Source: Planctomycetota bacterium
GTDB taxonomy: Bacteria; Planctomycetota; Planctomycetia; Pirellulales; Pirellulaceae
Reading direction: 5' to 3'
Assembly: GCA_014381825.1 (NCBI GenBank)
Contig: JACNKX010000149.1
Location: 186,001 to 250,000, forward strand
Length of the DNA: 64,000 nt
The notes beneath the pieces are model-generated. The model did no database searches and was not told where the DNA came from. It worked only from the letters and a program-made list of their open reading frames with translations. Positions 18,125 through 52,240 of the stretch are shown piece by piece. Both the position numbers and the translations under genes were made by a program. The first letter of the stretch is position 1, and every line of letters begins with the position of its first letter.

Positions 18125-18184
18125 ATGAATCTGGAAACCGTAAATTCGGAAGCCGTAAATTCGGGAACTGTGAATTCAAACACC
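18125..18184 (+). repeat. 15-bp-period imperfect tandem repeat before the sulfatase start
   Basis: Three to four copies of a unit resembling GAAACCGTAAATTCG run from about 18131 to 18180, directly in front of ATG 18185. Read in frame they give ETVNS, EAVNS, GTVNS, so they could be either leader DNA or an extended N-terminus from ATG 18125. A signal peptide is formed only from the Met at 18185, which favours leader DNA. Confidence 0.7.
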
Positions 18185-21037
18185 ATGAACAAGCGGCAAA
18201 TAAGATCGTGGATTGCTAAACTTGCGATGCTGACGTCCCTTGGGCTGATTTGCATCAGCGGTTTCGCGGCTGATCGTCCGAACTTCATTGTCATAAACAT
18301 CGATGATCTCGGTTACGGTGACATCCAACCGTTCGGCTCGAAGTTAAATCGAACGCCGAATTTGAATCGCATGGCCGAAGAAGGCAGGAAGTTGACGTGC
18401 TTTTATGCCGCACCGGTTTGTTCGCCTTCGCGGGCAGCGCTGATGACCGGCTGCTATCCGAAGCGAGCACTCCCGATCCAGCACGTGTTGTTTCCTGAAT
18501 ACGCGACCGGGCTTGCACCAGGTGAAATCACGATCGCCGAGTTGCTCAAAGAGCAAGGTTACGCGACCGGGATCATCGGCAAGTGGCATCTTGGGGATCA
18601 ACCGGAGTTTCTGCCGACGCGTCAAGGATTCGACTATTACTACGGGCTTCCCTATTCCAACGACATGGGACCTCCGGCGGACGGAGTGAAGAGCAACCTC
18701 GGCCAACCGCTGCCGAAGCCCCGCGCCGGTCGCAAGAAGCAGCCTCCTTTGCCGCTGCTCCGAAACGAAACCGTCTTGCAGCGAGTCCTTCCGGATGACC
18801 AGCAAGCCATTGTCGAGCGTTACACGCAGGAAGCCGTTAAGTTTCTGTGGGATCATCAACAGAAGCCATTCTTCCTCTACCTGCCGCATTCCGCAGTCCA
18901 CTTTCCGCTTTATCCAGGGAAAGCATTTCAGGGCAAGTCGAAGAATGGTTTGTATGGTGATTGGGTAGAGGAGGTTGATTGGAGCGTTGGGCAAGTGCTC
19001 GACACCGTCCGCCAGTTGAAGCTTGATGAGAACACGCTCGTGATCTTCACCTCCGACAACGGCGGCTCCATTCGCCACGGCGCTGTGAACACTCCGTTGC
19101 GAGGTGGCAAAGGATCTACCTTCGAAGGTGGCATGCGCGAACCGACGATCGCATGGTGGCCGAAGAAGATTCCCGCTGGTACGGAAAGCGGCGAGGTGAC
19201 GACCATGATGGACCTCATGCCAACCCTCGTGAAGTTAGCGGGTGGAAGGGCTCCGAAGGATCGCAAGATTGACGGTGGCGATATCTGGCCGATTCTGTCT
19301 GGCGCCGAAGATGCCAAGTCGCCTTACGAATCGTTCCACTATTTCCGTGGCTTGAATCTGCAAGCCGTTCGCAGCGGTCCCTGGAAGCTGCACTTAGCCA
19401 AGGGCGAGCTATATCATCTCGAGCGCGACATCGCCGAAGCGAAGAACGTCGCAAAAGAGAATCCTGATGTCGTCGCTCGATTACGCAGGATCGCCGACGA
19501 AGTGGACGAAGATCTCGGCACCAAGGAACTCGGCCCAGGCTGCCGACCAATTGGCGAAGTCGAGAATCCAAAGCCTCTGATCGACCGTGAGGGCCAGATT
19601 CGCGCGGGCTTCGGACAGCTTCTCCCACGGACCGGAATGGGCATCATGGTTGGCGAGGTCACCGCGACCAGCGCGCTCGCGCAAGTACGACTCACGAAAG
19701 TAGACGCACTCGTGGATGGCGACGTCGTCGGGATGCCCGGCGCGGTTCGTTTTCAAGTCGAGCCGATTGACAAACAACTAATGAAGCCGATTCGTTCGCG
19801 AACGTTACCAGCGACGGCTGACCGCGACTTCATTGTGCGACAGCTGTTCGAGCGGTTGAAGCCCGGTGCCGAGTATCGTATCCGCGCCTGGATTGGTTCA
19901 AGTGCTAAAGATCTGCGTGACGGCCCGACCGCCACGTTCCGAACGCTTCCTGGTGCCGCATCTAGTGAAGTCGTTCGCTTTACGGTTGTGACGGGCATGA
20001 ACTACGCAAAGTTCCATGGCGACAATCGCATTGATGGCAGGATTCATCGCGAGCACAACAACACCGATTTACCACCGCCGTATGCACTGCCCGATAAACA
20101 TCTTGGCTACCCTGCCCTCACATCGATTCTGAAAGATCGCCCCAATTTCTTCGTGGGCACGGGCGACAATGTTTACTACGACACCCCGAAAATGCCACGT
20201 GCCGAAACAGTTCCGCAACTCAGACAGAAATGGCACGAGCAGTTCGTCCAACCAAGATATCGCGACTTGTTCGCCGCCGTTCCGACGTATTGGATGATCG
20301 ACGATCACGACTATCGGATCGACGACGGCGACAATACAGGTGATCATTTACCGTCTCCGGAGACCGGTCGTCAGATGATGCTCGAGCAATTGCCCGTCGC
20401 TGCCGCCGACAACGACGATGCGAAGACATATCGCACGCATCGAGTCAATCGCGACTTGCAAATCTGGTTCCCCGAGAATCGTATGTATCGCAGTCCCAAC
20501 GCGATGGAAGACGGGCCGGACAAGACGATCTGGGGAGTGGAACAGAAAGCGTGGCTCAAACGCACGTTGGCTGCAAGCGACGCGACTTTCAAGTTGCTGA
20601 TCTCTCCAAACCCGATGATCGGACCCGATGATGCTCGCAAGTCAGACAACCACACGAACCCCGGCGGCTTTCGACACGAGCGCGACGAGTTCTTTGCCTG
20701 GTTGAATGAGCAGGGAATGGCAAAGAACTTCTTTTTGATCTGTGGTGATCGACACTGGCAATACCATTCGATCCACCCCACCAACATCGAGGAGTTTTCA
20801 TGCGGAGCGCTCATTGACGCAAACTCTCGGCCCGGTCGGAAACCGGGCGACCCTTTGTCGACTGATCCCGAAGCCTCGATCAAGCAGGTGTATTCGCAGA
20901 AGAAACCATCAGGCGGCTTTCTGATGGTTGAGTCAACTCCCGCACGCGACAATGAAACCGCGACATTGACATTCCGCTTTAATGACGAACAGGGCGACGT
21001 TCTTTATGAACACACGAAATCGGCCACGATTCAATGA
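18185..21037 (+). CDS. Secreted sulfatase fused to a PhoD-like phosphatase
   Basis: 950 aa from ATG 18185, which gives a signal peptide (MNKRQIRSWIAKLAMLTSLG to ISGFAA). The N-terminal half is a type I sulfatase: NIDDLGYGDIQPFGS for metal binding, CSPSRAALMTG with Cys79 (matured to formylglycine by an FGE), GKWHLGD, and SDNGGS. Residues ~480-595 look like the Ig-like N-domain of PhoD (GIMVGEVTATSA, LKPGAEYRIRAWIG). The C-terminal half is a PhoD metallophosphatase: TGMNYAKFHGD, GTGDNVYYD (~658), IDDHDYR (~704) and GDRHWQYHS (~853). All key motifs of both halves are visible, so both should be active on sulfate and phosphate esters outside the cytoplasm. It is followed 54 bp later by another sulfatase. 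Confidence 0.92.
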   Translation: MNKRQIRSWIAKLAMLTSLGLICISGFAADRPNFIVINIDDLGYGDIQPFGSKLNRTPNLNRMAEEGRKLTCFYAAPVCSPSRAALMTGCYPKRALPIQHVLFPEYATGLAPGEITIAELLKEQGYATGIIGKWHLGDQPEFLPTRQGFDYYYGLPYSNDMGPPADGVKSNLGQPLPKPRAGRKKQPPLPLLRNETVLQRVLPDDQQAIVERYTQEAVKFLWDHQQKPFFLYLPHSAVHFPLYPGKAFQGKSKNGLYGDWVEEVDWSVGQVLDTVRQLKLDENTLVIFTSDNGGSIRHGAVNTPLRGGKGSTFEGGMREPTIAWWPKKIPAGTESGEVTTMMDLMPTLVKLAGGRAPKDRKIDGGDIWPILSGAEDAKSPYESFHYFRGLNLQAVRSGPWKLHLAKGELYHLERDIAEAKNVAKENPDVVARLRRIADEVDEDLGTKELGPGCRPIGEVENPKPLIDREGQIRAGFGQLLPRTGMGIMVGEVTATSALAQVRLTKVDALVDGDVVGMPGAVRFQVEPIDKQLMKPIRSRTLPATADRDFIVRQLFERLKPGAEYRIRAWIGSSAKDLRDGPTATFRTLPGAASSEVVRFTVVTGMNYAKFHGDNRIDGRIHREHNNTDLPPPYALPDKHLGYPALTSILKDRPNFFVGTGDNVYYDTPKMPRAETVPQLRQKWHEQFVQPRYRDLFAAVPTYWMIDDHDYRIDDGDNTGDHLPSPETGRQMMLEQLPVAAADNDDAKTYRTHRVNRDLQIWFPENRMYRSPNAMEDGPDKTIWGVEQKAWLKRTLAASDATFKLLISPNPMIGPDDARKSDNHTNPGGFRHERDEFFAWLNEQGMAKNFFLICGDRHWQYHSIHPTNIEEFSCGALIDANSRPGRKPGDPLSTDPEASIKQVYSQKKPSGGFLMVESTPARDNETATLTFRFNDEQGDVLYEHTKSATIQ

Positions 21038-44469: not shown

Positions 44470-44709
44470 CGGCTTGCGATAGGTGTGGAGCTTCCTTCTC
44501 GGTGTGTTCGTGAGACGCTACGCCCAATAGGTAGCGCGTACCAGATGAGATTGGGGTGTCCGCCCGATCGCCTGAATCGCTCCCGTATGTTCATGTTCCG
44601 TGATGAACAAGCGACATCGGCTCGTGAACTGACCAAGTTAGTTTGATCGTGTCAGCGGTTTTCAGTAGCATGGAGTCGGGCAACTTATCTTGGATAACTG
44701 GTTCGATTG

Positions 44710-45327
44710 ATGCCGAATCGCGACTTGGAGCCTGAATTGATTCAGCGAGCGATCGCAGGAGATCGCGCGTCGCTGTCTCAATTGTTGCTCTTTCATCACG
44801 ATCCCCTGCGGCGGCATATCGTTCACGAGTCGACCGGGCAGCAACTTGGCGTGATGCTGGTTGACGACATCTTGCAGCAGACTTTCGTGCGAGCGGCACA
44901 AAGTATCAAGACGTTCGAGAATCGTGAGGCGAGTTCGCTACGCGGATGGCTCAAGACGATCGCAACGAACTTGATCAAAGATGCTCGCAAGCGACGAGGA
45001 CGAGAGCGCCGTGCAGCGGCGCAACACATATCACATTCGGACGACGGGTCATTTCTCCAAGCGGTCGACCGGTTGTCGGGCGACGTCACACCACCGATCA
45101 AACGTGTGCAGCGATCCGAGAGTATTCGCCGGTTGCGCGTGGCGATGGCAAGTCTCCCAACGGAGCAGCGAGACGTTGTCCAACGCTACTATCTCCAAAC
45201 ACAATCGCTGGAGCAGATCGCCGAGTCGACGGGCCGGACGATCAGCTCCATTCGGGGAAGTTGTTATCGAGCGAGAAAGAACCTACGCAGTTTGATGGGC
45301 GGTTCGTCGTTGTACTTCAGCAACTAG
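44710..45327 (+). CDS. ECF-type RNA polymerase sigma factor (kinase-linked)
   Basis: 205 aa. ATG 44710 follows an in-frame TTG. Region 2 is visible as VDDILQQTFVRAAQSIKTFE with RGWLKTIATNLIKDARKRRGRERR. Region 4 is LPTEQRDVVQRYYLQTQSLE, QIAESTGRTISSIRGSCYRARKNLRSLM. No anti-sigma factor is adjacent. Instead the gene ends 13 bp before a large Ser/Thr kinase. ECF-kinase gene pairs are known in planctomycetes, and phosphorylation is thought to replace the anti-sigma factor as the control. Confidence 0.92.
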   Translation: MPNRDLEPELIQRAIAGDRASLSQLLLFHHDPLRRHIVHESTGQQLGVMLVDDILQQTFVRAAQSIKTFENREASSLRGWLKTIATNLIKDARKRRGRERRAAAQHISHSDDGSFLQAVDRLSGDVTPPIKRVQRSESIRRLRVAMASLPTEQRDVVQRYYLQTQSLEQIAESTGRTISSIRGSCYRARKNLRSLMGGSSLYFSN

Positions 45328-45340
45328 ACACGAGATCCCT

Positions 45341-48300
45341 ATGGCGGTCGGCTCTTCGAGTGAGCAACGAGCGAGAACGCGATCGCGGCAAGTGCGCGAG
45401 ATCGTCCTTGACGTTTCCAACCGGCGTGCACGCGGCGAGCGAGTTTCCGACGAAGAGCTGTTGGCTGCCAATCCCGAGCTTGCTCCGGCGCTGACGCAGG
45501 AACTGGCGAAGTTGCACCGCATCAATTGCGTTCTTGAACAAGTTGACAACTCGACCTGCGCCGAAGCACTCGAACGCATCGAAGCTGACTGGGCGCTGGA
45601 TCGATCGTCACGTGGCGTTGGTCCAGCCGACTCTTGGGCAAACAGTCGCTCTCGCAATGTTCTGTCTGGACCGGACGAACACGACCCGCTAACCGCATCA
45701 ACTGCGGGTGACAGCGCAGAACGGTTGCGACGAGCTGATTCCACTGCGGCGACTGCACCAGATCACATCGGACGTTATCAGGTTCGTGGACTATTGGGTG
45801 AGGGCGGCTTTGGTCGTGTGTATTTGGCCTGGGACCAGGAGCTAAATAGACATGTTGCAGTGAAGGTTCCGCACGCACATCGTGTTGCCGAGCCGACTGA
45901 CGTCGAGGCTTATCTCCGAGAAGCGAGGCTGATTGCGAACCTCGATCATTCGGGTATCGTGCCGGTTTACGACGTCGGCAGAACGGACAAAGGTTACTGT
46001 TATGTCGTTTCGAAGTTGATCCAAGGGGAAGACCTGGCGTCTCGGATGAAGCAGGAACGATTCGAGCCTCTGGCCGCAGCTCGAGTCGTCGCGCAAGTTG
46101 CGGAGGCATTGCAGTACGCTCACGACCAGGGTCTCGTGCATCGAGACATAAAGCCCGCCAACATCCTGCTAGATGGACGAGACCGAGCATACGTCGCCGA
46201 CTTCGGGTTGGCGCTTCGAGACGACGTTCTCGTCGAAGGCCGGAGCTTCGCGGGAACTCCCGCTTATATGAGCCCCGAGCAAGCACGCGGCGAGTCGCAT
46301 CGAGTCGACGGGCGTAGCGACATTTTCAGTTTGGGGGTTGTACTATACGAGTTGCTGACGCGGCGTAAACCCTTCCTCGCTGATTCGTATGACGAACTGC
46401 TGGCCTTGATTGTTGACATGGAAGTAGTGCCTCCCGGCGTGCTTGAAGAATTGCTCCCGGATGAATTGGAACGCATCTGCCTGAAGGCGCTGGCGAAACG
46501 AGCGGCGGATCGATACGCATCGGCCAACGAATTCGCCGACGATCTCTACTATCTCCTAAACGCAGCGACTGAGTCCTCGGTAGCCGCGGAGGACCCGTCG
46601 GAAGCGAAGATCGACCCTGAGCTGACACCGCGGGTAGTCCCCAAGGGATTGCGAGCGTTCGATGCGAATGACAAAGACTTCTTTCTCCATCTGCTGCCCG
46701 GTGCTCGTGATCGCAATGGGTTGCCAGAGAGCATTCGTCATTGGAAGCTGCGAATCGAGGAACGCGAGTCGGACGAAACTTTCTCGGTTGGCTTGATCTA
46801 CGGGCCTTCGGGTTGTGGCAAGTCGTCGTTGGTGCGCGCCGGACTTCTCCCGGCACTGTCTCCGCGGATTCAAGCCATTTATGTGGATGCGACATCAGAA
46901 GACACGGAACAGCAACTTGTGCGAAAACTACACAAGCAGTTTCCCGATTTGTCGAAGGAACTCTCGTTGCCGGCCTGTCTAGCGACGATTCGCCGTGGCG
47001 AAGGGTTATTGAATGGTCAAAAGTTGTTGCTGGTTATTGACCAATTCGAGCAATGGTTGCATGGGCGACAAGAGGGGGATCGCAGGCAATTCGTGCAAGC
47101 CCTGCGCCATTGTGATGGCGAACACCTTCAGACGCTATTACTCGTTCGCGACGATTTTTGGCTGGCCCTGAGCCGCTTCATGCACGAATTAGAGATCGAC
47201 TTGCTGCAAGGGAGAAACACGGCATTAGTCGATCTGTTCGATCCGATTCATGCTGCGAAAGTTCTGGCGTCATTCGGACGTTCGTTTGGCCGTGTTGCAA
47301 GCGAGCAAAGCGAAGCGAGTCCTTCGCAAGACGCGTTCGTCGTGCAGTCGATCGAGGCGCTCGCGGATGAAGGTAAAGTAAATCCAGTTCGTCTTGCTTT
47401 GTTTGCCGAGATGGTCAAAGGACGACCTTGGACGCCGAATACGTTGCGCGAGCTAGGGGGAGCGGACGGTGTCGGGATCGCATTCTTGGAAGAGACATTC
47501 TCCGCACGTGCGGGTAACTCACAGAGCCGTGCCCACGAGCAAGCAGCGAGAGCCGTTCTTGAAGCGCTGCTTCCTGATTCGGGCAGCGATATTAAGGGAC
47601 ACATTCGCTCTTATCCAGAACTGCTCGACATTTCGGGCTATGGCCATAATCCGCTCGCCTTCAAAGAGCTGATGCGCCTTCTCGACAGCGACACACGGTT
47701 GCTTACACCCGTGGATTCGGAAGTCAGCGGCGATGAATCGGCACCAGGCAGCAGGTGCTACCAATTGACTCATGATTATCTGGTCCCAGCGCTTCGCCAG
47801 TGGTTGACGAAGCGTCAGAAAGCAACTCCTGTTGGCCGAGCTGAGCTACGATTGGCGGAACGCGCGACCATGTGGAGTGCCCGTCCGGAGCGTCGGCAGC
47901 TTCCGTCGATTCTCGAGTGGTTACAGATTCGTTTGCTCACTCGTTCCTCGCAGTGGACTGCGAATCAGCGACGCATGATGCGAGCGGCGGCCAGACAGCA
48001 GGCAGTGACGGCGATCGTGGCCTGTTCACTCGCATTAATGTTCTTGCTGATGGGATCCGAGTTAACGACGCAAGCGAAAAACTTGCTAGTTCGCTTTCAG
48101 GCCAGTACCGCTTCGATATGGTTGGCTCTTGGACAGGACGACGAAATATGGGAGTTGCTGGCGCACGAAGCTGATCCAACACTGCGGACGCGTCTGATTC
48201 ATCGTTTAAGTCCGCTGGTTCTCGATCCGGATGAAATTGTGTCCGCGCAGAGCAAGCAGGGAGACGTCTCGACGCGCCGAGCTATGTTGTTGCTTGCGGG

Positions 48301-49324
48301 CGAGTTGGTAGGTGATCCGACGGAACAGCCGAGTACTGCAATCTCACGCGCGGAAACATCCCCTAGAGTGATTCGAGATCTTTGGAAGATCTTCAACGAA
48401 GATCCGGATCGCGGAATGCACGCGGCTGCCGAATGGACATTGTTGCGTTACGGACAGGAAGCTGAATTGGCGAGGTCAACGAAAGACGCGAGTGCAGAAT
48501 CGATTCGCGGAGACCGGCAGTGGTATGTCACGACGCAGGATCATGCGATGGTAATCGTGCCAGGACCAGACGATTTCATGATGGGATCGCCCGAAAGTGA
48601 TCGTTCGAGCGGAGGTGACGAAGTTGCGCACAGCCAGCAGATTCGGCGTAGTTTCTCCATCGCCAGCAAAGAGACGACAATCGCTCAGTTCGAGCAGTTT
48701 CTGATCGAGAATCCGTCGCATCGCTACAATCGAGTTCAGCAGTCGCAACGCGCTCCGGATGGCCCGCAGACGTTTGTCTCTTGGTACGATGCCGCAGCTT
48801 ATTGCAACTGGCTCAGCGACAAAGCCGGCGTGCCAGAAGAGCAATGGTGTTATATCCAAAATCGCGACAAGGAATACGCGGTGGGCATGACCGTTGCGGA
48901 CAACATTTTTACTCGCAACGGATATCGCCTGCCGACCGAGGCCGAATGGGAGTATGCGTGTCGCGCTGGCACGACAACGGCGCATCACTTTGGTCGAGAC
49001 GAGTCACAGCTTTCCAAGTACGCAGTCTTTGACGATGGAAAGTCTAGTGAGCCGATGAGTGTTGGGATGCGGAAGCCGAATGATTATGGTCTGTTCGACA
49101 TGCATGGGAATGCCGCCGAGTGGTGTCATGATCGCTATCGTCTCATGCCCACCGCGCAAATGGTAGATTCGTTCGCTTCGATCCCCGGTCGCGAGCCGCG
49201 TGTCGTGCGTGGCGGCTCGTTTCGAGACGGTGCGATGCGGATTCGCAGTGCCGCTCGCGGGAAAAGTCTGCCCGGAACGCGAAACGCGGCGATCGGTTTC
49301 CGGGTGGCACGTAGTTATCCCTGA
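45341..49324 (+). CDS. Ser/Thr kinase-STAND NTPase-FGE-like multidomain membrane protein
   Basis: 1327 aa. The kinase domain (~143-410) has LLGEGGFGRVYLA, HVAVKVPH, VHRDIKPANILL (~265), VADFGLA (~286) and AYMSPEQARGE, so it should be active. Next is a STAND-type NTPase with Walker A GPSGCGKSS (~487) and Walker B LLLVIDQFEQWL, then VRDDFW. A membrane helix is at ~886-908 (TAIVACSLALMFLLMGSEL). The C-terminal ~265 residues resemble formylglycine-generating enzyme: FMMGSPESDR, RLPTEAEWEYACRAG, DMHGNAAEWCHD, RVVRGGSF and GFRVARS. The active-site cysteines normally after RGGS are absent (RGGSFRDGAMRIRSAARG), so it is probably a sensor or binding module, not a sulfatase-activating enzyme. A tripartite sensor-switch-kinase is the likely role. 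Confidence 0.9.
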   Translation: MAVGSSSEQRARTRSRQVREIVLDVSNRRARGERVSDEELLAANPELAPALTQELAKLHRINCVLEQVDNSTCAEALERIEADWALDRSSRGVGPADSWANSRSRNVLSGPDEHDPLTASTAGDSAERLRRADSTAATAPDHIGRYQVRGLLGEGGFGRVYLAWDQELNRHVAVKVPHAHRVAEPTDVEAYLREARLIANLDHSGIVPVYDVGRTDKGYCYVVSKLIQGEDLASRMKQERFEPLAAARVVAQVAEALQYAHDQGLVHRDIKPANILLDGRDRAYVADFGLALRDDVLVEGRSFAGTPAYMSPEQARGESHRVDGRSDIFSLGVVLYELLTRRKPFLADSYDELLALIVDMEVVPPGVLEELLPDELERICLKALAKRAADRYASANEFADDLYYLLNAATESSVAAEDPSEAKIDPELTPRVVPKGLRAFDANDKDFFLHLLPGARDRNGLPESIRHWKLRIEERESDETFSVGLIYGPSGCGKSSLVRAGLLPALSPRIQAIYVDATSEDTEQQLVRKLHKQFPDLSKELSLPACLATIRRGEGLLNGQKLLLVIDQFEQWLHGRQEGDRRQFVQALRHCDGEHLQTLLLVRDDFWLALSRFMHELEIDLLQGRNTALVDLFDPIHAAKVLASFGRSFGRVASEQSEASPSQDAFVVQSIEALADEGKVNPVRLALFAEMVKGRPWTPNTLRELGGADGVGIAFLEETFSARAGNSQSRAHEQAARAVLEALLPDSGSDIKGHIRSYPELLDISGYGHNPLAFKELMRLLDSDTRLLTPVDSEVSGDESAPGSRCYQLTHDYLVPALRQWLTKRQKATPVGRAELRLAERATMWSARPERRQLPSILEWLQIRLLTRSSQWTANQRRMMRAAARQQAVTAIVACSLALMFLLMGSELTTQAKNLLVRFQASTASIWLALGQDDEIWELLAHEADPTLRTRLIHRLSPLVLDPDEIVSAQSKQGDVSTRRAMLLLAGELVGDPTEQPSTAISRAETSPRVIRDLWKIFNEDPDRGMHAAAEWTLLRYGQEAELARSTKDASAESIRGDRQWYVTTQDHAMVIVPGPDDFMMGSPESDRSSGGDEVAHSQQIRRSFSIASKETTIAQFEQFLIENPSHRYNRVQQSQRAPDGPQTFVSWYDAAAYCNWLSDKAGVPEEQWCYIQNRDKEYAVGMTVADNIFTRNGYRLPTEAEWEYACRAGTTTAHHFGRDESQLSKYAVFDDGKSSEPMSVGMRKPNDYGLFDMHGNAAEWCHDRYRLMPTAQMVDSFASIPGREPRVVRGGSFRDGAMRIRSAARGKSLPGTRNAAIGFRVARSYP

Positions 49325-49534: not shown

Positions 49535-50041
49535 TTGGCACTGACCCAGGCCCTGTTCAACGAGATGGTCGACGAGCATGGTGCTGCGCTGTACCGAATC
49601 GCGTATCGGATGGTCGGGGATCGACATGATGCCGAAGATCTAGTGCAAGAGGCGTTTAGGTCGGCGTGGAACAGTCGAGCGAGATTTCGAGCAGACCTGG
49701 GTGAGCGAGCTTGGTTGGTGACGATTTTGCGACGGCGAGTTGTTGACGGCTGGCGAAAGCGACGCGCACGAACGATATCCTTCGACGAAGCCTCGATGGA
49801 CCTTGGCAGTCCGGGCGATGATCCCGCTGCAAATGATTTCGAGGACCACGTCCAGGCGGCGCTGCGGCAACTACCAGACCAACTTCGAGAAACGCTCTTG
49901 TTGGTTGTCGTGGGCGAGCTAACCCACCAGGAAGTCGCCGACATGTTGTCCATCCCGCTCGGAACCGTGTTGTCGCGCGTCAGCCGGGCGAGAACTAAAC
50001 TGCGAAAACTGCTGGTCGAACAAGAAGTCAGGAATCAGTAA
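49535..50041 (+). CDS. ECF-type RNA polymerase sigma factor
   Basis: 168 aa. TTG 49535 is taken as start, with GGAG about 9 bases upstream. Region 2 reads RIAYRMVGDRHDAEDLVQEA, then AFRSAWNSRARF. Region 4 reads LPDQLRETLLLVVVGELTHQ, EVADMLSIPLGTVLSRVSRA. This is a compact, normal-length ECF factor, quite different from the one at 44710. It lies 36 bp before the vWA protein gene, its probable regulatory partner. Confidence 0.9.
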   Translation: MALTQALFNEMVDEHGAALYRIAYRMVGDRHDAEDLVQEAFRSAWNSRARFRADLGERAWLVTILRRRVVDGWRKRRARTISFDEASMDLGSPGDDPAANDFEDHVQAALRQLPDQLRETLLLVVVGELTHQEVADMLSIPLGTVLSRVSRARTKLRKLLVEQEVRNQ

Positions 50042-50077
50042 CGTTAACAATCATGAGAGTGACGAGCAGACAAGATC

Positions 50078-52240
50078 ATGTGTGACGAACGGTCTGAACA
50101 ACATCTCGACGCCGAGTTGCGGAATGTTGAAGTTCCCGGGGAGCTGTTCGCGCGTGCGAAACAAGTGACTCAGCTCACGGACGCCGCGATTGATTCAGCG
50201 ATTTGTTCGCTCGAGACACCGAACGGTCTTGCAACGCGAGTAAGGATCGTCGTCGCCGATGCGTCGCTCGACGAGTCAATTCGGCTGGTCGAAGTTCCAG
50301 AGGATCTGCTCGCCAGTTTGCGAATCATTCCCGAAGTTCGTCGCGATTCGACGCTTCGGCGTTTCGTGTTGGCTGCTTCTTTGTTGTTGGCGATGACAGG
50401 AAGTTTCTTCGGCGCGCTCGGAGGATTAATGGCGTCGCTTCGACCTGTGGCCGACGCGGCGACCTCGCTCTACGTCATTGACGTTGGCCCGACGCAGCTT
50501 ATGGCGATGCCTTCCGATCCCGTTCGCATCTCGTCCGACAAGATGTCGAGTCCGTTCGAGGGAAGAACGGTTCCGGTGGTTTGGAAAGGTGGCCCGTTGC
50601 AGGTCGATCTAGTAAGAATTGATGCAACCATGACGCCAGGTCCCGCCGGACAGTTGATTCGCGAAGTCGAGCGAGGCTTAGAACTCGGCCGTGATGTCTT
50701 GCTGATGCGATGGGATGCGTATGCCTCGCCACAACACGCTTCGCAGCGACTTCCCGAATTGGAGCAGATTCGGCGCCCGCCCAGGGCGGGCGTTGATCTG
50801 CCAATGGTCGCAGGCTACGACCGCTCCTTCTTGCAGCGATCGTCGACGCATCCGCCAGTGTTTATTGCGGGCCAAGAAGTTTTGAAGTCGATACGCGTGC
50901 CGCTTTCGACGTCGGTTGCAAGTGTCCGTCGGACAGAGCAATTGCTGAAGCTTGATCGGGTACCCGACGCACAAGAGATTCGCACGGAGGACTTTCTCGC
51001 GGTCGTTGACTACGGCTTTGCTCCGCCCAACGGCAACGATGTCTCTGTTACGATCATGGCGGGGCCGGCGGTGTTCGGTGACCAAGATCACTCGCTCGTA
51101 CAGGTCGGTGTGAAGGCGGCTCGTCGCCTGGGTGATTCGGCGACGCATCTGTCGGTGGTTGTTGATGTCTCGCAAAGCATGCGTCAGCAACGACACATCG
51201 ATGTCGTTCGCGATTCGTTACGAACGATGTTTGAACATCTCGGACCGGGCGATTCAATTTCGTTAATCGCAGTGAATCACGAAGTCACGCAGCAGCTCGA
51301 TTTCGCGACTTCCGAACAGCAGGATCTGGTCTCGGACTGGCTCGCTGCGCTGCGAGCAGGTGGAGGCGATAGATTGGCAGTCGGAGTTCAAGCGGGATTA
51401 TCATTAGCGCTCGAGTCGCCTTTCGACGATAGTATCGCGAAAGAATTGGTCGTTGTGACGGATGGTGCGGCAAGATCTTCGCGCGGCGAGCGCGCTCAAC
51501 TTAGTGAGTTGCTTCGCGTTGCAGCGGAAAGTGGCGTTCAGGCCACGGTGCTACAGTTGGGGGATGATACGACGGCGGTCGCTCCGAGTGTGGATGGGAG
51601 TCCGACTCCCGAAGGCGGCCTTCACTTGGCGACCGTGTCCTCGGATGAGTTGTCGTGGAAGTTGGTTGAGCTTGTAACGGGCGTTTCGTCGGTTGTGGCC
51701 CGTCAGGCACTTGTTCACGTCGAATTCAACCCGAAAGCGGTACGCGCCTATCGCTTGATCGGGCATGGACCGTTGGCGACAACTGGCTTGGGGGAAGAGG
51801 TCTGGGCGACCGATCTGCGATCAGCTGAAGAGGCAACCTTGCTGTTTGAGGTCTGGCTTCGCGATAGTCTCGGGGACGAAATCGCTTCGGCGACCATGCA
51901 TTGGATTGCACCAGAATCTAGCGAGGCGAAGCACAGCGGAGTCGCGTCGCTCAGCCGATACGGTGTGACCACCAGGCTTTCAGAGGCGCCAGCGTCCCTT
52001 CAAGCCGCTGCCATTGCAGCTGAAATTGGCCAACGATTTCGCGGAACTGGCAGCTTCGAGTTAGGTGGTGAAGCTGGTTTCCGCGAGCGGCGGAAGTCTG
52101 CTAGTTGGGCAGGAATCATGGACGCTGCCGCCCATATTGCCCCGGAGGTTGCTGGGAGAGAGGAATTTCAACGGTTGCTAGAGTTGGCTCGAAAGATGGA
52201 AGAACAACGCCGCCATCAACGAGCGTCAACGACACTGTGA
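50078..52240 (+). CDS. Membrane vWA-domain protein (YfbK-like), probable anti-sigma-type partner
   Basis: 720 aa. The N-terminal ~110 residues are cytoplasmic and repeat the phrase VEVPGEL/VEVPEDL, followed by one membrane helix (FVLAASLLLAMTGSFFGALGGLMASL). Outside, a YfbK-like region precedes a vWA domain whose MIDAS reads DVSQS (D363-S365-S367) with VVTDGAA. The C-terminus has GEEVWATDLRSAEEATLLFE and ALAIAAEIGQ-like helices typical of YfbK (DUF3520) proteins. The inside-helix-outside topology and the adjacent ECF factor suggest it passes an outside signal to the sigma factor; that role is inferred from position. Confidence 0.8.
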   Translation: MCDERSEQHLDAELRNVEVPGELFARAKQVTQLTDAAIDSAICSLETPNGLATRVRIVVADASLDESIRLVEVPEDLLASLRIIPEVRRDSTLRRFVLAASLLLAMTGSFFGALGGLMASLRPVADAATSLYVIDVGPTQLMAMPSDPVRISSDKMSSPFEGRTVPVVWKGGPLQVDLVRIDATMTPGPAGQLIREVERGLELGRDVLLMRWDAYASPQHASQRLPELEQIRRPPRAGVDLPMVAGYDRSFLQRSSTHPPVFIAGQEVLKSIRVPLSTSVASVRRTEQLLKLDRVPDAQEIRTEDFLAVVDYGFAPPNGNDVSVTIMAGPAVFGDQDHSLVQVGVKAARRLGDSATHLSVVVDVSQSMRQQRHIDVVRDSLRTMFEHLGPGDSISLIAVNHEVTQQLDFATSEQQDLVSDWLAALRAGGGDRLAVGVQAGLSLALESPFDDSIAKELVVVTDGAARSSRGERAQLSELLRVAAESGVQATVLQLGDDTTAVAPSVDGSPTPEGGLHLATVSSDELSWKLVELVTGVSSVVARQALVHVEFNPKAVRAYRLIGHGPLATTGLGEEVWATDLRSAEEATLLFEVWLRDSLGDEIASATMHWIAPESSEAKHSGVASLSRYGVTTRLSEAPASLQAAAIAAEIGQRFRGTGSFELGGEAGFRERRKSASWAGIMDAAAHIAPEVAGREEFQRLLELARKMEEQRRHQRASTTL

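Follow-up and report, generated by a model that had tools for sequence, protein, structure and literature searches.

A predicted single-pass receptor kinase of planctomycetes with nSTAND1 and cysteine-less FGE-fold modules and a conserved ECF sigma factor neighbor

The window analyzed here, a 64,000-nucleotide stretch of planctomycete DNA, contains a gene that joins a Ser/Thr kinase, a STAND NTPase and an FGE-fold domain in one polypeptide. STAND NTPase-FGS proteins have been predicted to be counter-invader systems, with intracellular sensing proposed (Kaur et al., 2021, PMC8195603), and this locus raises the question of what its product senses, on which side of the membrane, and what it controls. 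A preliminary description, which placed the open reading frame exactly where we find it (45341-49324, plus strand, 1327 amino acids), suggested a stress or phage sensor that signals through an ECF sigma factor encoded upstream. The reading we favor, at a probability of roughly 60%, is that of a single-pass membrane receptor kinase that would be gated by a ligand through its nSTAND1 module and would have the upstream ECF sigma factor as its output. The features of the locus are collected in Table 1.

Table 1. Features of the sigma factor-receptor kinase locus, in positions of the window
Feature	Position	Strand	Basis
Operon partner: ECF sigma factor gene (205 aa, ATG start)	44710..45327	+	Sigma70 r2 + r4; synteny
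Promoter-like element, TTGATC-N17-TAGCAT, 67 nt before sigma start	44643..44671	+	pattern in orthologues
Receptor kinase gene, kinase - nSTAND1 - TM - HEAT-like - FGE-fold, 1327 aa	45341..49324	+	ORF + Pfam
Variable N-terminal region, aa 1-140	45341..45760	+	34% mean pairwise identity within clade
Ser/Thr kinase domain with intact catalytic motifs, aa 144-405	45770..46555	+	Pfam, motifs
nSTAND1 NTPase, aa 435-848	46643..47884	+	Pfam, invariant motifs, AF2 model
Walker A	46802-46828	+	GPSGCGKSS
Walker B	47027-47056	+	DQFEQW
Single transmembrane (TM) helix, aa 888-908	48002..48064	+	hydropathy, charge, relatives
Helical HEAT-like domain, predicted outside membrane, aa 916-1055	48086..48505	+	AF2 model
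FGE/C-type-lectin-fold module, aa 1069-1324, without catalytic Cys pair	48545..49312	+	Pfam, alignment, fold comparison
Site matching FGE cysteine pair, reads VRGGSFRDGAMRIRSAARG, no Cys	49205..49261	+	alignment

All three modules are indeed joined in this one reading frame, and the kinase and the NTPase both look intact. The Pfam Pkinase profile matched residues 146-360 (E 1e-45), and the motifs GEGGFGRVY, VAVK, HRDIKPAN and DFG were all found; HRD and DFG are kept in 12 of 12 members of the clade described below. With its Gly loop, VAxK, HRD and DFG motifs the domain is assigned, by sequence, to the Hanks-type Ser/Thr kinases and predicted to be catalytically competent. The nSTAND1 profile PF20703 matched with 81 bits against a cut-off of 27, and with the Walker A and Walker B motifs also in place the domain can be assigned to that family on the same grounds. 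The core residues of Walker A and the DQFEQ of Walker B were invariant in all 26 relatives compared. An AF2 model of the NTPase (pLDDT 85.6) ends in a single long helix that leaves the last domain and continues across the TM segment, and its closest solved folds are archaeal STAND-like and Cdc6-Orc ATPases. Several kinase-nSTAND1 paralogues are present in the same genome.

The view in the preliminary description that such modules usually occur separately did not stand. Matches were obtained in all 60 genomes searched (genus, family and order), many of them to the kinase domain alone, and a scan of the genome contigs gave at least 79 distinct NTPase-bearing loci. Where an organism is named for these loci it is a planctomycete throughout (two are labelled only 'bacterium'), and kinase-nSTAND1-TM-FGE is the architecture of most of the listed loci with enough sequence. 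The fusion is common in Planctomycetota and already published (PMC8195603, PMC11032199), and is not new.

The HEAT-like domain was also overlooked in the preliminary description, as was a single TM helix (Kyte-Doolittle 2.19) that separates the NTPase from the FGE part. Five Lys or Arg residues are found in the 20 residues before the helix and two after it. An equivalent helix is present in 32 of 34 family members, most of which likewise have more Lys and Arg on the NTPase side. Given the position of the helix, the kinase and NTPase are predicted to lie inside and the HEAT-like and FGE domains outside the cytoplasmic membrane, a topology read from hydropathy and charge counts only. This arrangement agrees with what has been described for planctomycete receptor kinases, in which FGE is the third most abundant accessory domain and lies mostly on the periplasmic side (PMC11032199). 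Like those proteins, and from the same phylum, the present one would have a cytoplasmic kinase, one TM helix and an FGE domain outside, as far as hydropathy and the positive-inside bias predict. It differs from them in the nSTAND1 module inserted between kinase and membrane and in the fixed sigma factor partner of its clade.

We next consider the putative sensing end. The FGE-sulfatase profile PF03781 matched residues 1069-1324 with 152 bits against a cut-off of 23. The claim that the module keeps the FGE fold and lacks the active-site cysteines was borne out: human FGE carries the catalytic pair C336/C341, whereas the corresponding site of the 1327-amino acid protein reads GGSFRDGAMRIRSAARG, with Cys at neither position. 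Cysteines are present at 1155, 1170, 1207 and 1262, none at a catalytic position. The same genome has one clear true FGE, encoded by a separate gene (locus L012), in which the site is GGSYLCHDSYCNRYR and the pair is kept. Among 64 aligned fused FGE modules, none has a CxxxxC pair and none has Cys in the first catalytic column, which indicates that the cysteines are absent, not displaced elsewhere in the fold. The second column does hold a Cys beside a gap in 18 long-form relatives, never paired; it is most simply explained as a structural Cys before RSA. By sequence, then, the module is a member of the PF03781 fold and family that lacks the copper-binding Cys pair of FGE (SUMF1). It is probably non-catalytic in FGE terms and a recognition module, as had been suggested.

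Comparison of a predicted structure with true FGEs confirmed the shared fold and placed other proteins closer. The AF2 model of the ectodomain, built with the family alignment as input (pLDDT 89.3, pTM 0.91), consists of an all-helical HEAT-like domain followed by an FGE/C-type-lectin (CLec) fold. Its closest solved folds (VIA-align) are the Treponema variable protein TvpA (PDB 2y3c, Z 27.5) and PvdO (Z 27.0), with CarF (Z 23.5) also among the closest; the true FGEs of human, S. coelicolor and T. curvata scored about 23. Within the clade, mean pairwise identity is 0.61 for the kinase and 0.65 for nSTAND, both inside, and 0.45 for the HEAT-like and 0.51 for the FGE domain, both outside. A sensor whose output is fixed would be expected to show this pattern, with the inside domains more conserved than the outside ones. 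The most variable part of the FGE module is its C-terminal part, with an identity of 0.43 and 3 of 59 positions invariant.

What that output might be is suggested by the gene neighborhood. The protein belongs to a short form (complete members 1287-1349 amino acids) lacking the insert, from about 100 to several hundred residues long, that relatives carry between the TM helix and the HEAT-FGE part. In a tree of the NTPase domain of the loci listed, the 13 short-form sequences form a single clade (SH-aLRT 100). An orthologous ECF sigma gene lies directly upstream on the same strand in 12 of the 12 short-form members with usable upstream DNA, a count that includes the gene described here and a locus in which the kinase reading frame is split in two (L145). 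Among the other listed relatives for which upstream DNA was available, 55 in all, an ECF-like sigma gene was detected next door in 3. The searches made no use of the neighboring gene, and the linkage is therefore no product of the method; the sigma-linked loci are related to one another and should not be counted as 12 independent events. Linkage to a sigma gene recurs at other loci (L095, L096, L102, L105, L106 and L107) and changes four times on the tree of the wider family. Most kinase-nSTAND1-FGE relatives are without an adjacent sigma gene, and the architecture thus does not require one. The upstream ECF sigma factor named as partner in the preliminary description is therefore a conserved operon neighbor within the short form, and the clade-wide synteny strengthens a link that is plausible. 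The subfamily with its fixed sigma gene looks new, with earlier mention in planctomycete ECF surveys (Wiegand 2020; Jogler 2012) possible. Two further genes were considered as parts of the unit and set aside: conservation of the downstream ECF and vWA genes is limited to the same genus, and the upstream 413-amino acid gene was not found at congeneric loci.

Control of an ECF sigma factor by a kinase encoded next to it is proven for EcfP-PknT and EcfK-PknS (PMC8999054, PMC13147305), and STPK-linked planctomycete groups (ECF59, 61, 62 and 217) have been predicted (PMC8999054, PMC8103513, PMC13147305). The sigma factor encoded here matched Sigma70 regions 2 and 4 in Pfam and scored 85 bits with TIGR02984, below the cut-off of 184. 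A profile search found no anti-sigma domain in the immediate neighbors. As in the EcfP-PknT and EcfK-PknS pairs, the ECF gene adjoins a gene for a transmembrane Ser/Thr kinase with no anti-sigma factor recognized in the operon, the hallmarks of an STPK-linked ECF sigma factor; adjacency to the STPK gene was found in 12 of 12 scorable clade members. The core-binding motif sets it apart from the proven pairs. In ECF43 the usual DAED is replaced by an uncharged STTA or QTTA and the protein is activated by phospho-Thr (PMC8999054, PMC13147305), whereas the region 2.2 motif here keeps acids and reads LVDD-ILQQ, against DAED-LVQE in ordinary ECFs. No member of the clade retains the first acid or the Glu of QE; every member has the last Asp, and L150 (SDAD) alone lacks the Asp before it. 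Many other planctomycete kinase-linked sigma factors have DASD or DPSD, with a Ser at a position where the sigma factor encoded here has none. Judged by its motif, the protein would not be of the ECF43 type, and because acidic residues are kept, the EcfP scheme, in which charge comes from phospho-Thr, is not directly transferable. Ser115 and Thr128, conserved in the linker between regions 2 and 4, are possible phosphorylation sites by analogy with Thr106 of EcfK.

Upstream of the sigma gene we noted a promoter-like element. The strict pattern TTG-N20-TA[GA]CAT, chosen post hoc after the alignment had been viewed, was found for 6 of 12 sigma orthologues, at -65 to -76 in 5 of these. It matched 7 of 3600 shuffled sequences and is unique on the plus strand of the window. 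Such a sigma70-like element suggests constitutive expression of the sigma factor combined with post-translational control.

Taken as a receptor kinase, the protein might work as follows. The HEAT-like domain and the cysteine-less FGE module, outside the cytoplasmic membrane, would bind a ligand or a partner protein, and the binding signal would pass via the TM helix to the nSTAND1 NTPase. The latter would serve as a nucleotide-dependent switch that probably clusters the receptor, clustering would turn on the N-terminal Ser/Thr kinase, and the product of the upstream ECF sigma gene would be activated, either directly by phosphorylation or in an indirect way. The fixed sigma neighbor suggests a complete pathway from the outside to the gene. 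A more specific version is tentative: a lectin-like ligand outside may gate nSTAND1 oligomerization and thereby the protein's own kinase, which may turn on an ECF sigma factor that is dedicated to it and otherwise binds weakly; the sites used would differ from the EcfP threonine and could include Ser115 and Thr128. If it were true, the STAND switch principle would shift from death and defense to reversible transmembrane control of transcription. Receptor-like kinases and ECF sigma factors are both very numerous in planctomycetes, and we found no such kinase-sigma pair from this phylum characterized in the literature. The short-form clade, with two genes in fixed order, is a small and clean unit for testing ligand, switch, kinase and transcriptional output.

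It is unlikely, though it is the strongest of the alternatives, that kinase and sigma factor are only co-expressed, with the sigma factor controlled transcriptionally or by another protein and the kinase acting on other substrates. The acidic residues kept in the core-binding motif, the sigma70-like element before the sigma gene and the many related kinases without a neighboring sigma gene would all be in keeping with this. However, adjacency in 12 of 12 loci together with repeated gains of linkage (the four changes on the tree) fits a functional pair better, and the conserved Ser115 and Thr128 fall in the linker region where EcfK is phosphorylated (PMC13147305).

The proposal of a phage sensor fared less well. 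In an anti-phage or conflict sensor, the FGE module would recognize an invader molecule, STAND would oligomerize and the kinase would trigger defense or suicide. The composition of the protein agrees with such a role, since S/T/Y kinases are possible N-terminal partners and nSTAND1 a possible NTPase of the STAND-FGS proteins (Kaur et al., 2021, PMC8195603); the order of nSTAND1 followed by a C-terminal FGE/FGS domain is the same, and the kinase-nSTAND1 paralogues of this genome also fit. The protein is a STAND-FGS fusion with an N-terminal kinase in that sense, but its context is not that of the published systems: the TM helix between NTPase and FGE would place sensing outside the membrane, which is evidence against an intracellular phage sensor, and we found no effector-associated domains, DGR template or defense neighbors. 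None of the neighbors scanned is a defense gene; they encode sulfatases, ABC transporters, planctomycete cytochromes and hydrolases, housekeeping or degradative functions, and the PADLOC matches were to generic kinase models (PD-T4-6 and similar). The operon partner is an ECF sigma factor, and the sigma-kinase operon, unlike an island with a changing set of effectors, is stable across the clade. DGR-diversified nSTAND1-FGE antigen sensors (PMC10907252) share the nSTAND1 and FGE/CLec modules, but here the final 270 bp of the gene had only short weak matches elsewhere in the 9.7-Mb, 238-contig draft genome: no template or variable repeat was found for the 3' end of the FGE module, and the C-terminus is not duplicated in the genome. 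Reverse transcriptases are encoded in the genome on contigs other than that of the gene. Overall we regard a conflict sensor as improbable. That FGE-fold and STAND modules occur together in what appears to be transmembrane signaling also warns against assuming an immune role for every STAND-FGE protein.

Least probable of all is that the FGE module has a different enzymatic activity, such as one resembling that of PvdO, CarF or EgtB, and that the protein couples surface modification to signaling. The closest solved folds do include PvdO, which works without the FGE cysteine pair, and CarF, but the non-enzymatic binder TvpA, a DGR variable protein, is equally close, the metal-binding DinB domain needed for EgtB chemistry was not found by Pfam, and the C-terminal part of the module is its most variable. 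The name already in use for such proteins at NCBI is 'bifunctional serine/threonine-protein kinase/formylglycine-generating enzyme family protein'.

A paralogue of the window's kinase-nSTAND1-FGE gene is present in the same draft genome as a pair of genes (locus L046), and loci L179 and L205 look similar in arrangement to this split pair. The sensor of these proteins appears to be detachable. Another kinase of this genome, at locus L051, has FGE and WD40 modules and no STAND module. The protein near the kinase-nSTAND1-FGE gene at L207 is possibly a free-standing tandem ectodomain-like protein. The orthologous kinase gene at G001:C606 is broken by a frame change within the kinase domain, which may be an assembly error or a real pseudogene.

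Many planctomycete ECF sigma factors that adjoin kinases (loci L114-L143) carry DASD or DPSD, with Ser replacing the Glu of DAED, in agreement with the published serine-phosphorylation idea for ECF59. In contrast, the clade of the window's sigma has Asp at this Glu position. Upstream of the window's sigma gene, the intergenic DNA around a promoter-like element, a pattern chosen after the alignment was seen, has diverged but the element itself is retained. The second ECF sigma contains the canonical DAED motif and is followed by a possible membrane anti-sigma; adjacency of these two genes to the kinase is kept only within the same genus (L082, L083). Elsewhere, the window encodes an apparent Sulfatase-PhoD phosphatase fusion.

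Coordinates of the features discussed
Feature	Location	Details
FGE-module protein (405 aa) and kinase-nSTAND1 (1078 aa)	L046 3181-4395 and 4411-7644	Separate adjacent genes, contig C132
Sigma related to window's sigma, then kinase-FGE-WD40 protein	L051 1851-6200	Contig C1
821-aa protein	L207 10877-13339	Four HEAT/FGE profile matches
Broken kinase gene	L083 5690-9609; L145	
TTG-N20-TA[GA]CAT element	Window 44643-44671; matching region of L144-L146, L153	-65 to -76 of sigma gene
Second ECF sigma, then vWA-domain protein (720 aa)	Window 49535-52240	
Single ORF	Window 18125-21037	Sulfatase (PF00884, aa 52-373), PhoD phosphatase (PF09423, aa 661-894)
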